This document shows, one piece after another, positions 3,395 through 45,507 of a stretch of 64,000 nt of DNA. The notes under the pieces were generated by a model. The model saw only the letters and a list, made by a program, of their open reading frames with translations. It had not been told where the DNA came from and did not search any database. Source of the DNA: Isoetes taiwanensis (taxonomy: Eukaryota > Streptophyta > Lycopodiopsida > Isoetales > Isoetaceae); the NCBI GenBank assembly GCA_021234155.1, contig JAJEKV010000334.1:188001-252000 (forward strand), given 5' to 3'. Position 1 is the stretch's first letter; the number at the start of each line of letters is the position of its first letter. Made by a program: the position numbers and the translations under genes.

Positions 3395-5026
3395 CTATGA
3401 TCTCAGACCACAGATATCAGAGGGAGTACCTTTCAGGGCAAGGGAAAAGCCTAAAACCTTAGAAGAGGTGGTAGGGAGGATATACTTACAGCCCAGGAGA
3501 GCAGCTGTTTGCTCTCCTTTTACCTGGTCTCTGACCACCACTTTCGATTTGATAGGGTTGATCTTACAGCCTGAGGCTTCTCCAAAATTCTCCAGAATAC
3601 TTTGGGTGTTGGTGATGGATCTGTTGTCCATCGAGACTAGCAGGAATGTATCATCTGCAAATGACCATTTAGGATTTGATCCATTTCTCCGTTGTTGGGA
3701 AGGGTGAGACCTTGGATCACGTTAGTTCTCTTCGCCTCTTCCAATTTACCATGAAGAGCCTCCATCACAATGAGAAAAAGAAAATGGGCTAACGGGCATC
3801 CCTGCTTCACACCTCTTTGCAGAGGGAAGAAGGGGCCGCATTCCCCATTGATCAAAACAGAGGATCTGGAATTGGATAGAATTGCTTGAAATAAAAGAAT
3901 TACCTCATCCGAAAACCCCAAGGCTTTGCAGCATTTGAACAGGAAATCCCAACTTACCGTGTCGAAGGCTTTGGTGATGTCCAGCTTAATTAAGGCAATA
4001 TCCTGATTAGAGTCCTTAGCCCAATTAAGCCCCAGCATAGCTGTGACCACATTGTCCAATATGAATCTGTCTTTCAGATATGCAGCTTGTGAAGTGCTTA
4101 CAATTCTTTCCAAAACAGTCTTAAGTCTTCTGGCAATAGTTCCTGAAATTATCTTATAGATAACATTGGTTAGCGAAATAGGCCTGTAATCTGAAAACGT
4201 GGCTGGCATATCAGTTTTGGGGATAAGAGTGATGAAGCTAGTATTGATCCTTGCATCCAAGCGCTTTATAGTTCTGAACTCGTTAGCTAAATTAACAATG
4301 CTATCCCCTAAAATAGGCCAAACCTTGATGAAGAATTCGATTGGGAGTCCATCCGGGCCAGGACTCTTTCCCTTCTCCATTTCTTTAGCAATTTGGAAAA
4401 GCTCCTCTTTGGAGAAGGGTAATTCAATGCTAGAGTTGTCCTCCATACTAACTTTTGGTTGGAGGTTGATAAACCTGTTCATGATATCCTGGGAGCTGTC
4501 ATGATTGGTCCCCATTATCTTTTTAAAATGATCGGTAGCTTCTTTGATCTGATTTTCATCAGATTTCTTCATCCCCAACTCTTATTTCGAATATATGGTT
4601 CTTCTTGATTCTGCCTTTAGCCTTTACAAAAAAGAATTTGGAGCTACTCCTCTCGTCATGTTTGATCTCCCTTATCTTTGCCTTAAGCTTCCAACCTTCA
4701 GCAATTTTGATTTCTTCTTTCTCAATTTCCGCTCTGATATTGTCTTTGTCCCCTTCGGGAGCATTAGGGAGACTATCCCTCAGATTTTGGAGGGAGGGTA
4801 GCTTACTAAGATGAACTTTTTTCCCCCATTCCTTGAGCCACTTCTTTGTAGCCTTTGCCACTTGAATCCACCAGTACATCCAGCCCGATTGACCATTAGG
4901 CTTGGGGAGATTCTGTAAAACTTCCTGAAACTTATCCATAAAGTCTTCGTGGTCTAGGAGGCTGGCGTTGAGCTTAAAGTAAGTTTTCCTTTTCTTGTTG
5001 GACTTGTAGGTAGGCATGATCCTCAA
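3395..5026 (-). pseudogene. LINE ORF2, linker and reverse transcriptase domain (frameshifted)
   Basis: The linker (4559-5026) leads into the RT. RT landmarks are KGKSPGPDGLPIEFF (4578-3637 frame), SDYRPISLTNVIYKIIS, ALIKLDITKAFDTVSWDF, the RGVKQGCPLAHFLFLIVMEAL block and, in a shifted frame near 3645, WSFADDTFLLV with the catalytic FADD box. A frameshift lies just before FADD, separating it from the preceding RT motifs; another lies between the linker and the RT. The enzyme would copy LINE RNA at a nicked target site. Motif order and spacing are normal for plant L1. The breaks make this copy non-functional. Confidence 0.92.
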
Positions 5027-5155
5027 CTGTTGAGGGAAGTGATCTGAGAGAGTGTACCCTTCCAGGTTGCTTATTCTGCTGCTGTGGTTCCAAAGATTCT
5101 CAGAAAGGTAATACCTGTCATGAAGACATAGGGTGGGGTCTGCCCTTTTGTCAGT

Positions 5156-5730
5156 TTAGCTATAGGAGTTGGGCTTGGTTCTGGCCAGAGTAAGGTTATG
5201 GCTCCTAGTGAGGTCCAGCCAAGCATCCTTCTCATTCTGCCCTTGAGGTGCGAAATTCTTATTTTTCATGAAACTGTTAGTCACCATGTTAAGATCACCA
5301 CCTAAAATACATTCATCAAACTCTAAATTATCTAAACTAATTTTCACCTTCTTCCAAACATCTACTCTTTCTAAGGGGTTATTGAAAGCATAAATATTTA
5401 CGGGGCAAGCCTAGGGAAAATGGTACGAGAGAGGAGGATGCCATCCGCCATTCCTACTATTAATCATATAAATATCAGAGATGTTAAGATGATTTTTCCA
5501 AGCTATCGCAATGCCACCAGAGGATTCATTAGCAGGGATAGGCCATATACTATAATTAGGGGGAGAGCTCTACTTAAATTTCTCTCATAATCCGAGTCAT
5601 GCAGTTTGTGTTCCTGTAAGAAGAGAATATCAGGGTTAAGGGATGAGAGGCATACCTTCAGCCTCTCTCTTTTAATAATGATGTTGATACCCTGGAGGTT
5701 CCAGGTAACACAATTGATCTCTTTATCCAT
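5156..5730 (-). pseudogene. LINE ORF2, N-terminal apurinic-like endonuclease (broken)
   Basis: ORF2 begins with ATG at 5730, whose A is shared with the TAA stop of ORF1 (TAATG). The first segment reads CVTWNLQGI...NPDILFLQEHKL, matching the N-terminal motifs of the LINE exonuclease/endonuclease/phosphatase fold, including the metal-binding Glu in the LQEHK motif. A second segment (5156-5347) has ECILGGDLNMV, the GDxN motif. Frame is lost between about 5350 and 5500, and the region carrying the SDH motif runs into further breaks before 5026. The enzyme would nick target DNA to prime reverse transcription. Confidence 0.88.
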
Positions 5731-7244
5731 TAATACCTATATTTTCCTAGGACCATCCCTGCTTGAATGGTCTGTTTCCTTGGACTAGATCTGCTTGGGC
5801 CAGAATAGGACTTTTTCTTACCTCTACCTTTTTTCCTGTTGACAATATTCCAGCCTGTGTCTTCAATGTCTGGATCATTCCTTTGAGTTTCCCATTGAGT
5901 ATCAGCCTCATTACCCTGTTGAGTGGAGTCAAGATTCTTGGGAAAAGTGAAGACTAAGTTCCCTGTGTCAATTCTCACTGAAAGGTTAATATTCTTGATA
6001 AGGACAACCATGTCATCTTGAATTTTAATTTTAGGAAAGTGGTCATGACAATGCTTTCTTTGATCAGGAATGATCAGAGTTTGTTTGGTATCAAAGTTAT
6101 CCTCGATCTTATTGGGCACAGTATTATCCTTTTTATTAGCTTTCGGGATCCAAACTTGTTTAGGAATTTGGTTCGAGACTGCTTCAGGTTCTTGGATCGG
6201 CCATTTAGAATAATTGATGGTAAGGTCCAGGAATTCATCAGCCTTGACTCGGACTTTAATCTTCCTCTTCCATTCAGAGTTAATTTTCTTAGATATGCAT
6301 ACCGAAGGGAAGTTAGTTTGAGGAATAGTGATTTCGAGGACCTCCCCTAAAGGTTCACAAATGGCATTCAGATGGGATCTGGTCCAAAAAGCTGGGGGGA
6401 GATTTGGGAAAGATAACCATGTAGAGGTCTGGATCTCCTCCTTTGTTCCTGGAATGAAATTGGGCGACCAATTCATTAAGTAGAAGGGAGCATTGTTGAT
6501 GAAGTCCAGCTTCCTCCTCAGAATTTGCTTGACGCAAATCTCGTCCCTACAAACAATCTGGAAGGTCTTCTTATCCAACCTAAGTATGGAAAGGATCGGG
6601 ATATGTTGGGCTTTAGTAATCCAATTCTTAATTTCCCCCTGATTAGGGCACATACGCGGGAAATGTACAAGAATAGCATTCCTGGAAAACAAGTCAGTAG
6701 CAGAAGAGTCCGAAACAGCAAGCAAATCTATAAAATTCCCCCTAACTGTATTCTGGTTCCCTAAGTTAGTCGGTTGAGAAACAGAACCAGAAATATTATC
6801 CTTCATAAGAATATTTTTATAGGAGGGGATAGAAGGTGGACCTTTGATCTTGTCGGTCTTGCCAATTACGGGGATGGAGTTGCTAATTTTGTTTTCTCCA
6901 ATCTTAGCTTTCGGCACATTTAGCGCTGATAGCCGGATTTCCTCGCAGTTCCCGCATTCACATGAGTTCACCTCTTCCGGATTAAAGAATCCGTTTGAGT
7001 CCTTGATATTGCATGTTTTCGCTGATTTCTTGCCTCTTAACTGATATACCTCGAGGGATGTTGAGATGCCTTCCAATGGTTCGTTCAGCGCCAGAGTTTG
7101 CCTAAAGATTTTCCTGTGCCTTTCAATAACATTGTCTTCGGCCTCTTCCCATCTCTTTATGAGCCTGATGCTAGCATTGGACGTTTCTCTCAACCCGTCC
7201 CATTGAATGATCAGGTTTTTAACTTTTGCAAGCATTTCATCCAT
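5730..7244 (-). CDS. LINE ORF1 protein, DUF4283-like (504 aa)
   Basis: An uninterrupted ORF. I chose the ATG at 7244 (MDEMLAKVKN); the frame stays open upstream to about 7298 without another ATG. An N-terminal segment holds a Cys cluster (SCECGNCEE, plus CNIKD upstream) that could bind zinc. The middle (from about residue 190) resembles DUF4283: FPRMCPNQGEIKNWI, then YLMNWSPNFIPG, a TSTWLSFPNLPP segment and PLGEVLEI. In plants, DUF4283 is typical of L1 ORF1 proteins and is thought to bind element RNA. The C-terminus is basic (KKGRGKKKS), fitting nucleic-acid binding. The stop overlaps the ORF2 start by one base. An intact ORF1 beside a broken ORF2 is notable. Confidence 0.85.
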   Translation of the reverse strand: MDEMLAKVKNLIIQWDGLRETSNASIRLIKRWEEAEDNVIERHRKIFRQTLALNEPLEGISTSLEVYQLRGKKSAKTCNIKDSNGFFNPEEVNSCECGNCEEIRLSALNVPKAKIGENKISNSIPVIGKTDKIKGPPSIPSYKNILMKDNISGSVSQPTNLGNQNTVRGNFIDLLAVSDSSATDLFSRNAILVHFPRMCPNQGEIKNWITKAQHIPILSILRLDKKTFQIVCRDEICVKQILRRKLDFINNAPFYLMNWSPNFIPGTKEEIQTSTWLSFPNLPPAFWTRSHLNAICEPLGEVLEITIPQTNFPSVCISKKINSEWKRKIKVRVKADEFLDLTINYSKWPIQEPEAVSNQIPKQVWIPKANKKDNTVPNKIEDNFDTKQTLIIPDQRKHCHDHFPKIKIQDDMVVLIKNINLSVRIDTGNLVFTFPKNLDSTQQGNEADTQWETQRNDPDIEDTGWNIVNRKKGRGKKKSYSGPSRSSPRKQTIQAGMVLGKYRY

Positions 7245-7995
7245 GTATGCCCTGAAGATACTGTTCTCGAAGGGAATTTTTAATCCGGAAGAAAGCAACC
7301 GTTATCAGGCTGCAGACCTTTCCCCTTCACTTTTTCCCTCCAGAAAGGGGATAACTGCCAATGATAACTCCTTTCCCTTCCCAAGAAGAATCTCGCCTAA
7401 GATATGCCAAGCCGTACACAGAAGCTACAGAGAATGCAGATCCTAAAGAGCTAAACCTGACCCTAACCTGACAGCCCCCCTAGATCTGGCACGGGGCCCA
7501 AGAAAACCACTAATTGGATACTAGGAACCTCCACACCACCGTATCGAGATCAGTGATGTGTTGGGATGGCTGGAGGTCGAAGAATGTCGCCCATGATGGA
7601 ATATAGGTTCAATCCCAAATTCAATAGGGGCGCTCATAGTGAAGAGATTTCGTTCAAATCATTACCGGGGCCATGCGTCTGGTGAGAATTGTATTTGTAA
7701 CTCTCAAAGAGCCCGATCTATCAAAACAAAGAATACATAGGAAGAACGAACTAACACCAAATCTGCAAAAGCCAATTCTTGAATGAGAATCTACTGTACT
7801 GGAAATCAAATTTTCTATAACTACTACGACATCCTGCAGTTCCAGGGGGGTGATAGATATTCCCAACCCCTGGAGAACAGCTTCAAGCAAAGCCTCATCC
7901 ATCGGGTTTGGGAGATTCTCCCTGGAGCCAGGCGCTCGGTTCGAGGCACTCAACGTTCATTTTTCCTTGTGTCAATCCCCTTTGTTTTTCCATCT
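7245..7995 (-). other. LINE 5' leader with a short ORF
   Basis: This is the region upstream of ORF1 on the minus strand. An ORF from ATG 7905 to 7654 begins MDEALLEAVLQGLGISITPL and is acidic/hydrophobic at first, then degenerates. It may be the relic of an upstream start of ORF1 or an unrelated leader ORF; frames between it and ORF1 are not continuous. I do not recognise a domain. An internal RNA polymerase II promoter would be expected here but cannot be proven by eye. Confidence 0.45.
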
Positions 7996-8011
7996 AATCT
8001 GTGCAATTATA
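7996..8011. repeat. LINE target-site duplication, right copy
   Basis: An exact copy of the 16 bp at 1519-1534 (aatctgtgcaattata). It defines the 5' boundary of the minus-strand LINE. Confidence 0.9.
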
Positions 8012-8177
8012 AATGATACAACAGTGAGTGTTATAATCCAAACTCCAAGTTCATATTGTGAATCAACAAAAACTCCAGTATTTGCATATTTAAAATAATA
8101 ATAGAGAAATAAAAATGCGACCTCGAATGTTGCTGATAGCAGATATCATCAAGGCTCTTTTCAGCTTCAAGGAAGAT
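8012..8177 (+). repeat. Dispersed direct repeat, copy 2
   Basis: This matches 181-322 in the same orientation. It adjoins the LINE target-site duplication, and its end overlaps the start of the large inverted repeat by about 9 bp. Confidence 0.8.
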
Positions 8178-8429
8178 GTCATGCCTGAATTTTGTAGAGC
8201 ATTAGTAAAGAAAGGAAGATGTTGTGCCTAAATTTTGTAGAGGTGAATTTTGTCCGCTTGTGAGTGCACCTTGTTGGGCTAATATGTAAGCTTGACTTTT
8301 ATTTTAATGTTTGGATTGAGATAACTATTTGGTTGTCAGATATGTTGTGGTTTAGAAAGCACCTGTTCTATTGATCCACAACTAAGCTACCATTGCAGGA
8401 CAAACTGTTGAAGCCAGTCCTTAGCAATA

Positions 8430-8700
8430 CACATGTATATATGGCTTCATTCTTGCGAGCACCACAGACAAGAGTGATCAGGTTTATGAGAAATTTCATT
8501 TGGAGTCGTACAAAGGAAGAAGTGTAAATTTGGTGCACCAATTCTATCGAGCTAAAGTTTTGCTATATAAGATGCCAAAGAAAAATGGTAGAAATGCATT
8601 TCATCAAGATTATGCACTAGACCAAAGGAAAGTTCTTTGGAGGGCACTATTGAGGCAATGACCAAAGGAATGGTGTTTCTTAGGACCATGTTGCGGACAT
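8430..8700 (+). pseudogene. Possible LINE ORF2 fragment within the left arm
   Basis: Plus-strand translation gives MASFLRAPQTRVIRFMRNF followed by IWS, resembling the post-RT region of LINE ORF2 where a short helix precedes an FxW motif. Downstream frames are interrupted. The mirror copy lies in the right arm near 10890-11130. This is a weak call based on one motif. Confidence 0.3.
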
Positions 8701-11396: not shown

Positions 11397-11593
11397 CCTT
11401 TCTATGATAATTATGTCGCCTCATGTTTTCACATGCCTATGTGGCATGTTCAAGGATGCGGCTTCTTTTTTTGTTTCACCTTGTTATTTAAAATGCTTTC
11501 GTTGCATGTGGTCTTTTTGTTGCTTGCATGTGGTCTTTTTTTTGTTGCTTGCATGTGAGTTGTACAACGTTGAACAATTATAACAAGTTGTAT

Positions 11594-11699
11594 AGGGGAA
11601 TGTCACTTTAGGTGACATTCACGTGGAACGCGTTGCCGACGCGCGTTAGCGCGGAGGCAACGTTGACACGTGGGAATGTCACCTAAAGTGACATTTCCC
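11594..11699. mobile_element. Foldback MITE-like element
   Basis: Arms of about 45 bp are inverted copies: gggaatgtcactttaggtga on the left and tcacctaaagtgacatttcc on the right. The match extends inward through cacgtg to the ggcaac/gttgcc core. Each arm itself contains a smaller palindrome (gtcactttaggtgac). The right arm overlaps the TIR of the next element by a few bases. No coding capacity; probably a non-autonomous DNA element. Confidence 0.7.
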
Positions 11700-11729
11700 A
11701 AACGTGAAGTTTGCTTAGGTTACATTCTG
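11692..11729 (+). repeat. Left terminal inverted repeat
   Basis: The core of 28 bp (acgtgaagtttgcttaggtt plus acattctg) pairs with 14585-14612 with a single mismatch. Confidence 0.8.
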
Positions 11730-12367
11730 TCACTTTTTTTTCCTCATTTTTTTTTTCCTCTGTTCGCGTTTCCTCTGTTCGCGTTGTGTTCTTGGTTGGC
11801 GATCTTCCTGTTTGCGGTGGCGCCATCGCCGTTGTTGCTTCCGGTGGCGCCAGCCAAGTATTAGGATCATTGTGACGAAGTTTGAAAGGATTTGGACGAG
11901 TTTTTGAAGAATCTTGCTCTGTTTTTGAAGAATCTTGCTCTGTTTTTCCTGCTACCTGAGCCGATGTGATAGTTTCTGGCGCCATTTGTGTTTTTTCTTT
12001 GCCTGAAGAAGTTGGACGAAGTGGTAAGAAGATTTCGGAAGATTCTTTGCTTGCATGTTGCTTTCTTGCTACAATATGTGTGCGGGAGCATGTAGCACGA
12101 CTTGGAAGACGGTCAGGATGCCTATTTTGCAAGAAATTCTTGCATGCAGGTTCTCTAGTCGAAGTTTTCTGGTTCCTAATTTGTTTCAGGTTCTGATACT
12201 TGGTATAGGACGAGTTTCAGAGTTGTATTTTAGGTTCTTGTTTGATCCAGGTGGTTTGCTTCAGCATTGTGTCAAAAAGGCAAGTATTATTCTTGTTTTT
12301 TCGTGTTTCTTTTGATATTCTTTGTTTCTTATTACTAATCTGCAATGTTTCTTGTAGGTTTCTGTCA

Positions 12368-14193
12368 TGGATGATCTTCAGGACAATGTACTTCGTGATA
12401 TTACGAACAATATTCTTGAGAGGGAGCTGCAGACAAACAAGCTTGCTAGTTTGAACATATCTGATGATGCTAACGAGATCATTGTGCATTTTGAGAGTGC
12501 ATTAGTTTCGAGTTTGGAGAGGAAGCTATTGCAAAGTATATGAGAGATTCGAGTCTTTGTCAAGCCGTCATTCTTCATTGCATCCCTCTTGGTAGTAGGC
12601 TACCATTTGTTGAGTTAGATGAAAAATTGCAGCAAGAGGTAGATGCTGGAGGTATTAGCAGGTCTGCTGCAAAGATTGCTTGGGCAAGAAACAGATTCGA
12701 TCTTTGGAGGAAGACTTTTGGGTATTCTTTGGAGAAACGCATTGAAGAGTTGGATCTTTCCTTATTTGCTTCTTTATTAGAGAAGTTTATGATGCAAGTA
12801 GTGAAGAAGGACAAGCAAGGATCATTCTACCCTCCAGAATCGTGAGTATAATTTGTTTTATATTTGTTAGTTGTTTTATATTTGTTTTATATTTATTACT
12901 TACCTTTGTTTGTTCTGGGCTTCATGACATGTTTATGAAATTTGGTGCAATAATCAGGAGGAATCAAGAAATTAGAATTGCTAATAGTGGAGTTTCTGAG
13001 GTAAAATTTTGCATCAAAGAATCTCCTATATTTGAGAGGGCAAGGCTTGCTTGTGTGGCGTCCATGAGACGTTCTAGAAACACGCCAGCGGTGTGCAAGA
13101 AAAGGAAAAAAGTGGCAGAAATACCCTATGGTTCGGCGGTTGCTTTCTTGTCGATGTTGATCATTCGATTAGTCATCCAAAAGGTTTGCAGAAAAGGTTT
13201 CTTTACTATTGTGTGGCTAGATTTGCTATTCGAGGTCAGGGTGAGGTGCATCAGTTGCTTATGAGTGATTTCTTTGTTGGATCGGAAAATGGAGATGAAT
13301 ACCTTGAATACAGTGAGAGGCTTTCCAAGAATAACGATACTGATATGAATCATTATCAAGAGGAACAATTTCGGACCTTGTCATTTGTTTTGAGTCCGAT
13401 GTAGTTCTTACATTGGACAATTGCGTAAACATTTTGCTTTGCCTAAGCCTAATATCGATGGGACTGCTGGGATCTGCCATTGTTTCATGCAGGCAATCAT
13501 TAATCACAGGGGACCTATCTGGTTCAATTCTAAAAATAGGGTGTCTGCTAGAAAATTGGCTAGTTGGGTCAAGTATATGTTGTTGATTGTTGGTGTTGAG
13601 GCGGTTTAGCAACAAATCGGCCGATGTACCGTGGTTTCGAATGACAAGAGCTCATGTTCCTATGAATATTGGGATGAGATTGATTGCCAAGAAGCCCGTG
13701 GGCAATTTGAAGCATATTCTAGGTGTGTTTTCTTCATTGTTCTTTCTTTTTTGCTATCTAATGTGTTCTAATTTTAGAATGTATTGCGGTATGACAAGAC
13801 CTTGGATTTGCAAAACAAAGTGTGCTATGTCATGTGTTTCCCAACCTTTTGATCGAGAATGGAAAGAGAAGAATGTTTGAAGATGTATACAAGCAAGAAC
13901 TCGACAAGTTGGATGATATGGATCGAGGAGCGGTAGTTCTCTTGCTTGTAGATTTACGGTAATATGGATATTTCGGTAATATGGATCTTTGGCCCACGAT
14001 GTTCCAAGTTGTGAAATGGATTCCATGGTACACCGTGAATCGGTGGAAATGTTGCCACCGCTTAATCGCTCCTACTTTTGATCTACGGTTTCCTGCTTTC
14101 GATTTGAAGGAGGATGATATACAGTTAAACAGAGATTTAGATATTTTGACTGAGTCTTCTCCAGATGTGAAGCTTGAGTTTTCAAAACATTAA
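12368..14193 (+). pseudogene. DUF3504/Crypton-like tyrosine recombinase gene, decayed
   Basis: The first ORF (ATG 12368 to 12541, 57 aa) is followed in another frame by QQEVDAGGISRSAAKIAWAR, then FDLWRKTFGY and VVKKDKQGSFYPPES (to 12841). This resembles the N-terminal core-binding part of DUF3504/Crypton-derived proteins (ZMYM2, QRICH1). A splice donor (gtgagta) follows at 12842. Then come an RRNQEIRIANSGVSEVKFCI segment (12957 on), YCVARFAIRGQGEVHQLLMS (Arg of the first catalytic box) and GDEYLEYSERLSKNN (to about 13350). After 13421 there is GPIWFNSKNRVSARKLASWV, then frame-shifted MTRAHVPMNIGMRLIAKKPV near 13640, where an HxxR/HK box would be expected. A second intron (gtgtgt...ttttag, about 13722-13776) follows. 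Multiple frameshifts make it non-functional. Assignment is by motif reading only. Confidence 0.5.
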
Positions 14194-14584
14194 TGTTCAA
14201 AGTTGGCAATATTTCGGTGGTTATTTTTGTAATTGCGGCATTGTTATGCGGTCATGTCTCAGGAAATGATCAAATGAAATGATAAAGGGTTTTGGCACGA
14301 AAAATTGTGGAAGTTCTACTGGTTTTGGACCTGCTACTACTCCTTGAAGTTCTTGTGTTTTAATGCTTTTGATTGTAATGTTTTTTTGAGGAATTGATAC
14401 TTTTAGTATCAGACTTTGACTTGTAATCTGGACACTCAGATTGAATCAGATATGAAGATATTTTGAGTCCTAAATTTGTTGTACAGTATAACTGAATTGC
14501 AAGTAAATTTGAAGACATAGAATTGCAATTAACTTAATCACATTTCTGAAAAAGAAAAACAAGCAGAATGTGGGATAAAAACAA

Positions 14585-14623
14585 CAGAATGTAACCTAAG
14601 CAAACTTTACGTGAATGGGAATG
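14585..14623 (-). repeat. Right terminal inverted repeat
   Basis: The inverted partner of 11692-11729, listed separately to mark the 3' boundary of the element. Confidence 0.8.
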
Positions 14624-44300: not shown

Positions 44301-45507
44301 TTGCCACTGTGCAACAAGCGCATTAGCTGGCCTGTTATACCGGGAGGGAAAGCTGCGCACTCATTGTTTCAAATTCACATGGCGAGAATAGTGTTCTTTG
44401 TGCACTTTCGACTATTGAGGCCACGTCAGAAAGCGAGCTTGCTGATTGAATGCCATTTAATCATTTGGGATGAATTGCGATGGCAAATAGAGAGTGCGAT
44501 TGAATCAGCAAGTGTGATTCTCTGAGAATTGTGTAGAAATGATGTTCCATTTGGAGGAAAATGTTTTGTGGCTGCGAGGCGACTTTAGGCGAGATAAGCC
44601 CATAGTACGAGTGCAGGGGAGAAGTGCTTGATGGTTGCTTCTATTAAATCATCGAGATTTGGAGAGCATTTATTATTCACAAGTTAGATGTATGGGTTAG
44701 AAATCTTTGCGGACCCGAGTTAATAACATTAGTGTCGTCCATAGGTGAGAATTGGCAATCGGATGTTGTGACATTTGATTTGTTTTCCCACAACAACATC
44801 TATGGAAGAAAACGGGGGGAATTCTTATACCCGGCAGATATTGTTTGTAGACCAACTTTGTGTGAAAGAAGAGCATTTTTATCTCCATTAAATGTGCATG
44901 TGGATGAGTTTAACAGGTCTATTCTTGATCGTATGCCAGGTCTGGAAAAGAGATATTATTCTCAGGATTCCATAAGTGAAAGTGACCAGGTAATTCACAC
45001 AAGCGCTCTTGCTGAAAATGAGTTTCTTCATAGTTATGATCACCCGACTTTGCCCAAACACACGCTTTGTCTTAAAGTAGGAGCTGTGTGTCAAATTATG
45101 AGATTGTTGGATGCGAGTAAAGGGCTTGTGAAGAATGCTAGAGTTGTTATACACGAAATGCACTGTGATTTGTGACTGTCCGGCTTCTTGGACATGAGGA
45201 CACGAGCTCAGAAAATATACATGCGATTTGTCGGGCAGATTTCTTTCACCAGCCAGCGCGCTGCCCTTTTACAGTACATAGACGTCAGCTGCCGCTCAAG
45301 CTGGCATACTCAACGACATTCCACAGTTGTCTTGGCCTAACATTACATAAAATAGTCCTGGATTTGCGAACGAATGTGTTTGCTCATGGGCAATTGTACA
45401 CGACATTGACAAGAATACGAACTACAGAAGATGCTTTGATCCTACAGAACGAGGCATTGGCATCTGTAACGACTAGAAATGTTGTTTTTAGAGAATTGCT
45501 TGAATAG
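41326..45507 (+). pseudogene. Helitron Rep/Helicase (RepHel), frameshifted
   Basis: It starts MPRPRVEIDPSQTYSADELR (41326) with a basic Arg-rich tail, then breaks. The Helitron N-terminal domain follows: FCVHCRIALLPGE, GRHILPKLPELPSS (about 41740), then LNHLFAFFGLGVAGGEFVRL (about 41831) and MDMYSRVEEERLNFLA (about 42435). The HUH endonuclease box PHGHIVLK is visible at 42878-42901 in a shifted frame. The tyrosine motif region reads MYLSDYIYKDFDKVEY (about 43215). The helicase has a Walker A-like GKADTGKTFLLNA (about 44227), LCNKRISWPVIPGGKAAHSL, Walker B LIIWDE, KVGAVCQIMRLLDASKG and LPLKLAYSTTFHSCLGLTL, ending RIRTTEDALIL (45480). Function: rolling-circle nicking, ligation and strand unwinding. 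Many frameshifts. Confidence 0.9.

Follow-up and report, generated by a model that had tools for sequence, protein, structure and literature searches.

Kojima and Jurka (2011, PMC3212892) reported Cryptons in animals, fungi, a diatom and oomycetes; in the part of their account available to us, the elements are described as having no terminal inverted repeats and no long direct repeats. The same part places Chlamydomonas under plants in a tree legend, where we noticed no Crypton label, and mentions that the mitochondrion of a green alga has a DUF3504 gene (PMC3212892). Recombinase transposons in general are said, in an excerpt of another paper, to be without inverted repeats and duplications (PMC3627910). 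For plants, the part available to us of a 2015 survey has Crypton among the superfamilies present in all groups studied (PMC4438587), a Dracaena repeat table gives a small Crypton count (24 copies, 1,719 bases; PMC6294377) and small Crypton matches were counted near Brassica WOX genes (PMC6482515). According to a 2020 Arabidopsis review, Cryptons are not described in Arabidopsis (PMC7385966), and the word Crypton is absent from a 2022 land-plant review (PMC9033089). The literature searched, which was partly available as excerpts and lay outside Repbase and most subscription papers, yielded no plant Crypton characterised by sequence, gene or ends. We make no claim to the first Crypton in land plants, because survey tables list the class there.

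Inverted repeats can occur in the fungal Starships, which are recombinase elements. In DIRS retrotransposons, which use a tyrosine recombinase, an internal region is complementary to the joined ends. In the attP site of CTX phage, two inverted sites pair within one strand to give a recombination duplex, and the recombinases are XerC/D of the host. Within the tyrosine recombinase superfamily, Lys can occupy the position of the box II His.

The window analysed here, a 64,000-nucleotide stretch of DNA from Isoetes taiwanensis, contains an element of 3021 bp (11592-14612; Table 1) that is 92.5% identical to copy L010. We consider it likely that this is a Crypton-like tyrosine-recombinase DNA transposon with the ends described below, and that a hairpin at its left end is part of the transposition site. 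The first-pass annotation had placed the element at 11692..14623. Its right border was about right, but copy comparison carries the element leftward past the left border, through a palindrome of about 105 nt (11595-11699), to 11592. A left border at 11692-11702 was rejected, since copies and empty sites extend to 11592. The sequence common to the window and several copies runs from 11588-11590 to about 14612, and unaided BLAST alignments against the window start at 11588-11590 in eight copies (L010, L011, L013, L015, L017, L019, L026 and L027); the left-end motif used for locating ends itself contained GT.

Table 1. Features of the element in the window (positions are those of the whole stretch).
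Feature	Position	Strand	Basis or remark
Target TGT at left junction	11589..11591	+	Empty sites of two other copies already have YGT; element begins after it
Whole element	11592..14612	+	Copy comparison
Left-terminal palindrome (hairpin), outside left inverted repeat	11592..11700	+	DNA folding
Hairpin tip GCC-GA-CGCGC-GTTA-GCGCG-GA-GGC, tandem G-A/G-A mismatch	11635..11658	+	Flanking stems covary between copies
Internal site J', core ACGT 11702-11705	11692..11712	+	Inverted near-copy of in silico end junction
Left inverted repeat, internal	11702..11737	+	
Exon 1, degraded by small indels	12367..12841	+	Comparison with L010/L025
Exon 2, bulk of recombinase domain	12919..13722	+	Acceptor before exon 2 altered
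Exon 2, box I Arg (FAIRG) codon	13231-13233	+	
Exon 2, box II K-x-x-R region	about 13613-13626	+	Frame broken here in window copy
Exon 3	13789..14347	+	Preceding splice acceptor altered in window copy
Exon 3, predicted catalytic Tyr codon	13790-13792	+	
Right inverted repeat, terminal, ending ..TTTACGT	14577..14612	+	

The left end reads YGT/ATA(C)AGGAATG (the slash marks the junction), followed by the palindrome and then by the left inverted repeat, and on the right the element closes with the right inverted repeat and its final TTTACGT. The decayed recombinase-like gene is situated between the two arms, which are 36 nt long, 89% complementary and 2839 nt apart. Terminal inverted repeats of about 38 bp had been said to bracket the gene; the repeats exist, but the left one is internal and the hairpin, which had escaped the first-pass annotation, lies outside it. 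We conclude this because empty sites show the hairpin, both inverted repeats and the gene inserted as a single unit. The alternative of an unrelated nested MITE was rejected for the hairpin, which occupies a constant position wherever the left end is intact and covaries by subfamily. Over 30 nt in 13 copies, the left and right repeats have a mean identity of 0.86 within their own copy and of 0.64 against other copies, and since the former exceeds the latter, the inverted repeats are not due to chance. Between the two deepest groups the left/right identity is 0.47-0.73. Copy L019, in which the left repeat has decayed, is an exception (0.60 within the copy). As had been noted earlier, such repeats are unlike described Cryptons, which, in the part of the source available, have none (PMC3212892).

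An 86-aa piece of the gene has at least 150 matches in its own genome (the best 150 of 1103 first-look candidates were scored; the genome searched comprises 1,658,258,908 bases in 1110 contigs). Of 28 copies analysed, both ends were located in 17. Outside this count are truncated, decayed or motif-less copies (L012, L014, L018, L020, L021, L028, L033, L034, L035, L036 and L039), among which L018, L036 and L039 still have YGT/ATA on the left. The left flank ends in YGT in all 17 copies (10 TGT, 7 CGT), and the right end is ACGT in 14, with ATGT or a decayed end in the other three. Matches between flanks outside the element never exceed 2 bp in these 17 copies, and ACGT stands on both sides in five once the terminal ACGT is assigned to the flank. 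The ends therefore share a short sequence, YGT on the left and ACGT on the right, and a target-site duplication is absent.

A search for empty sites used the joined flanks of six insertions (13 were prepared, and 40 of 396 candidates were scored) and yielded paralogous empty sites for two copies, of which seven were compared, one for L027 and six for L026. The joined flanks of L027 matched over their full length at one place, L041, with 214 of 220 positions identical, no gaps and the junction ..ACATTTTGT/TGCTATG... The junction of L026 was crossed at at least 27 places; in all six that were compared (L042-L047, copies of a repeat) the sequence ..GGTTACGT/TTGTGAGG.. is uninterrupted at the junction, and the left ACGT of L026 is already present in the empty target. 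For L010, L013, L015 and L016 there was no empty site among the matches listed. Copy L011 lies within a 15-bp tandem repeat that continues once the flanks are joined (30/35). Insertion is precise, after YGT and without duplication or loss, and the hairpin belongs to the inserted unit, as shown by the empty sites of two copies and by the tandem repeat that runs on in a third.

Compared with L010, the gene in the window is interrupted by numerous small indels, in line with the decay already noted from the window alone, and some of these indels could be assembly errors. In copy L025 the gene is intact and encodes 632 aa; its three exons, assigned by inspection, are separated by GT-AG introns of 83 bp and 81 bp. 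Direct profile matches are weak: Pfam DUF3504 was found for three of four recombinase regions, with a best E of 0.002 that may rest on a composite, one of the four rows of the alignment (A1) being made of two copies, and Phage_integrase for one of four (E 0.055). The intact L025 protein, whole or as the region, has no DUF3504 match in Pfam, and L013 alone reaches E 0.022 (15.2 bits, below the cut-off of 29.7). A PDB sequence search with A1 gave no match, the best E in NCBIfam was only 0.054, an integrase family in PHROGs was matched by one of four rows (E 0.06) and no related locus was confirmed in viral contigs or in bacterial and archaeal genomes.

The same genome holds a second DUF3504-type recombinase family (L029-L032; G000 C31 and C606) that lies above the Pfam cut-off. 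A search of the genome with the PF12012 profile found two loci of this family above the cut-off, and the profile had no match in 14 control genomes. The second family matches DUF3504 at E 1.3e-8 and Phage_integrase at E 6.3e-6 (26.5, just under the cut-off of 27.1). Aligned by hhalign (four rows against two), the two families match at 96.5% and E 9.6e-10, with the residue blocks FAIRG/FLIRG, GKSGR/NKTLR, GQR/GHK and RYDK/NYDH (element family/second family). Given the weak Pfam matches and this strong profile match to a family above the DUF3504 cut-off, the gene is, as judged from its sequence, one that encodes a tyrosine recombinase related to DUF3504, the link running indirectly through the second family. 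The proposal of a DUF3504 or Crypton-type recombinase gene in a plant is thereby upheld.

The predicted catalytic set comprises the box I Arg, a box II Lys-x-x-Arg, the box III Gln and the nucleophile Tyr. Of the R...HxxR...Y pattern, the first R, the second R and the Y are conserved in the four rows of A1 (one of them composite) drawn from better-preserved copies, but Lys replaces the box II His. Box II had also been read as V-x-x-R; this reading was dropped when alignment with the second family gave K-x-x-R. We use the name Crypton-like because the catalytic R-H-R-Y is incomplete, with Lys for His. Over exon 2 of seven copies, dN/dS is 0.053-0.122 between groups, where dS exceeds 2 in most cases and has no defined value for three pairs. 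For the three closest pairs dN/dS is 0.27-0.53, and the pattern indicates long purifying selection between groups and decay within them. Because dN/dS between subfamilies is about 0.05-0.12, the recombinase is most likely the mover of the element rather than captured cargo.

The hairpin is the most unusual part of the element, and suggests an uncommon mode of DNA joining. Folded as DNA, positions 11592-11704 give -47.5 kcal/mol (z -12.4 against shuffles). Both strands of the hairpin fold strongly, and in the three copies compared the fold of the top strand is the more stable by 2.8-5.5 kcal/mol (z -12 to -16). The usual tip is stem-GA-CGCGC-GNNA-GCGCG-GA-stem. Across 13 hairpins, with 12 rows that are distinct, 281 cells were scored and 87.5% of them are paired, and double changes occur in 12 of 24 pairs; these hairpins were selected by the tip motif, which in part imposes an invariant inner GA but not the covariation of the stem. 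The covariation score of 0.370 exceeds both the 0.063-0.118 of slid partners and the 0.188 (sd 0.021) of shuffles, and none of 500 shuffles scored as high. Further pair types are unremarkable against shuffles (52/500). By crude halving, the hairpin arms are only 0.75 identical within copies, compared with 0.63 between them.

Tips that depart from the usual form, or copies outside the set of 13, are L010 (GG/GA), L017, L019 and L038 (altered), L018 (tip deleted), L022 (TC/TC), L024 (longer tip), and L023 and L039 (shortened or altered tip), and L040 is within the set though it has no outer GA pair. In L022 (about 6640-6745, minus strand) the top-strand tip is TC/TC, as if the hairpin were inverted relative to L024/L025. 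The tip mismatches, and the difference between the joined and the internal site (TTTACGT in J, TTCACGT in J'), persist while stems change. On the evidence of the aligned copies, the hairpin is shown to be kept by compensatory change; long palindromes can, however, be homogenised without selection, which counts against this reading. Structure conserved by compensatory change and a strand asymmetry (the latter in three copies) are both present, as in attC-like sites.

Joining the right end to the left end in silico, as in a circle, produces a junction J that reads AACTTTACGTATACAGGAATGAC in L013. In inverted orientation, this junction nearly repeats the internal site J', whose reverse complement is AACTTCACGTTACACTAATGAC. 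In the predicted folds of 13 copies, J, the hairpin and J' form a single imperfect duplex; among them, L016 has its hairpin nearly deleted and L019 has a decayed left repeat. The same duplex is given by L037 and L038, and L040 pairs only in the hairpin. In most of the joined folds each arm is symmetrical over about 80-90 bp, and an asymmetry at the crossover, with three unpaired nucleotides facing two, occurs in nine of the 13 (L013, L015, L016 and L017 differ). At L040 (543-850) there is an element of about 308 bp with both inverted repeats and no hairpin; its right end TTTACGT is directly joined to the ATATAGG of the next element, so that the predicted junction is present in the genome.

In the proposed mechanism, the recombinase would join both element ends to form a circle, and the circle junction ..TTTACGT/ATACAGG.. 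would recombine with a YGT target across the common GT, so that the element would be returned conservatively. Within the circle, or within a displaced strand, J would stand opposite its inverted near-copy J' across the hairpin, and one strand could fold into a long imperfect duplex containing the recombination site. The G-A mismatches and the 3-nt/2-nt asymmetry at the crossover may mark the site such that the mismatches favour one strand. By analogy with known folded sites, the recombinase may integrate a folded single strand or an extruded cruciform in which the ends and the internal inverted copy of the junction pair as the site; we advance this tentatively and think it somewhat doubtful. 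Recombination through a folded or extruded palindrome is, at close to an even chance, the likeliest cause of the conservation of the hairpin.

The main competitor to the folded-strand step, although not to the identity of the transposon, is that the palindrome acts only as double-stranded DNA, with J' as a second binding or synapsis site and the symmetry of the hairpin maintained largely through palindrome-correcting mutation. We regard this as a real possibility, if somewhat short of an even chance. The same arms recur in J and J' in inverted order, the TC/TC tip of L022 looks like an inversion of GA/GA and both strands fold strongly, all of which speaks for this reading. Symmetry over some 80-90 bp per arm is, on the other hand, more than the arms of 11-13 bp that are usual for recombinase sites in the part of the source available (PMC3212892), and the tip mismatches and the difference between J and J' have persisted through changes in the stems.

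Two further explanations concern what moves the element. In a rolling-circle element of the Helitron2/Helentron kind, the recombinase would be cargo. Read on the minus strand, the element does carry one repeat at the 5' terminus, the other in a subterminal 3' position, and a hairpin on the 3' side. In form this resembles Helitron2, which has asymmetric inverted repeats and hairpins according to the part of the description available (PMC3627910). The element also lacks a duplication, with a right flank that begins with T in 10 of 17 copies, that is, between T and T. We nonetheless think this unlikely: no Rep or helicase gene was noticed among the open frames listed for the copies, the left flank is YGT and not T alone in 17 of 17, the repeats are about 36 bp instead of 8-15 and the recombinase is under purifying selection in the seven copies compared. 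Capture of the gene by an ordinary cut-and-paste TIR transposon with a DDE enzyme, which the first-pass annotation had left open, seems scarcely credible. Such an origin would account for the inverted repeats, and for the 4-bp ACGT match at both ends in five of 17 copies if the terminal ACGT is taken as flank. It was rejected because a target-site duplication is absent, as seen both in the flanks, which match over at most 2 bp, and in the empty sites, where the left ACGT of L026 pre-exists in the target; the internal position of the left repeat and the strong purifying selection on the recombinase also contradict it.

As a Crypton-like transposon, the element resembles Cryptons in its single recombinase gene, DUF3504-like domain, lack of target-site duplication and short common crossover sequence, and differs from them in its long inverted repeats, its terminal hairpin and the Lys at the box II His position. 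It is like the attP of CTX phage in having two inverted sites that could pair in one strand, but attP belongs to a phage genome and depends on host XerC/D. With DIRS it shares an internal stretch that is complementary to the ends once these are joined, but no reverse transcriptase was noticed in it. Integron attC sites, as described in the part of the source available, are also imperfect palindromes recognised by a tyrosine recombinase, with a structure conserved more than its sequence and unpaired bases that mark the strand; they are, however, bacterial and part of a cassette platform, and the folding of the element is a prediction (PMC8946536). Helitron2, in the corresponding part of its description, likewise has asymmetric inverted repeats and a hairpin with compensatory changes, but a different enzyme and shorter repeats (PMC3627910). 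In the literature searched, part of it available as excerpts, we found no plant element with such hairpin and inverted-repeat ends.

The family thus represents a characterised land-plant transposon of the DUF3504-type recombinase class with an intact gene and exact ends, the earlier plant reports that we found being counts of repeat classes only. Its insertion signature is clean, with empty sites, a YGT target and no duplication, and annotation that relies on terminal inverted repeats and duplications would overlook or mis-class such an element. The conserved palindromic end raises the testable question of whether a eukaryotic tyrosine recombinase uses folded DNA. If it does, this would be a land-plant DNA transposon, with at least 150 detectable copies, that has a folded recombination site like integron attC and CTX phage attP.

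In copies L033-L036 the standard end motifs were not found, and of these only L036, a more distant copy, shows the layout of the element. It appears to follow the same plan, with YGT/ATAAGGG, then a hairpin, and short repeats that match each other, all arranged as in the element; in L035 the hairpin is present and a clear repeat partner is absent. A non-autonomous relative of about 640 bp lies at L024 (about 7792-8433, minus strand), with YGT/ATAAGGG, a hairpin, internal and terminal repeats and TTTTTACGT; its layout is that of the element, and the sequence of its inverted repeats is different. At 6390-6500 of L024, a hairpin of another subfamily, in reverse orientation and with ACGT on both sides, adjoins the right end of the L024 element. 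It is possibly a solo-hairpin MITE, or a sign that J' is usable as an end. Another long hairpin, with an ACGT-like end, is found at 6797-6938 of L024. The second recombinase family has long palindromes of its own near the gene (L032, 5042-5203). Elsewhere in the window, LINE-like frames occupy 3637-7301 on the minus strand (RVT_1, E 3e-23; DUF4283, a domain known from plant LINEs, E 1.5e-16), and a Pif1 helicase 2B domain at 44648-45175 on the plus strand (E 2e-7) is perhaps the remnant of a Helitron.
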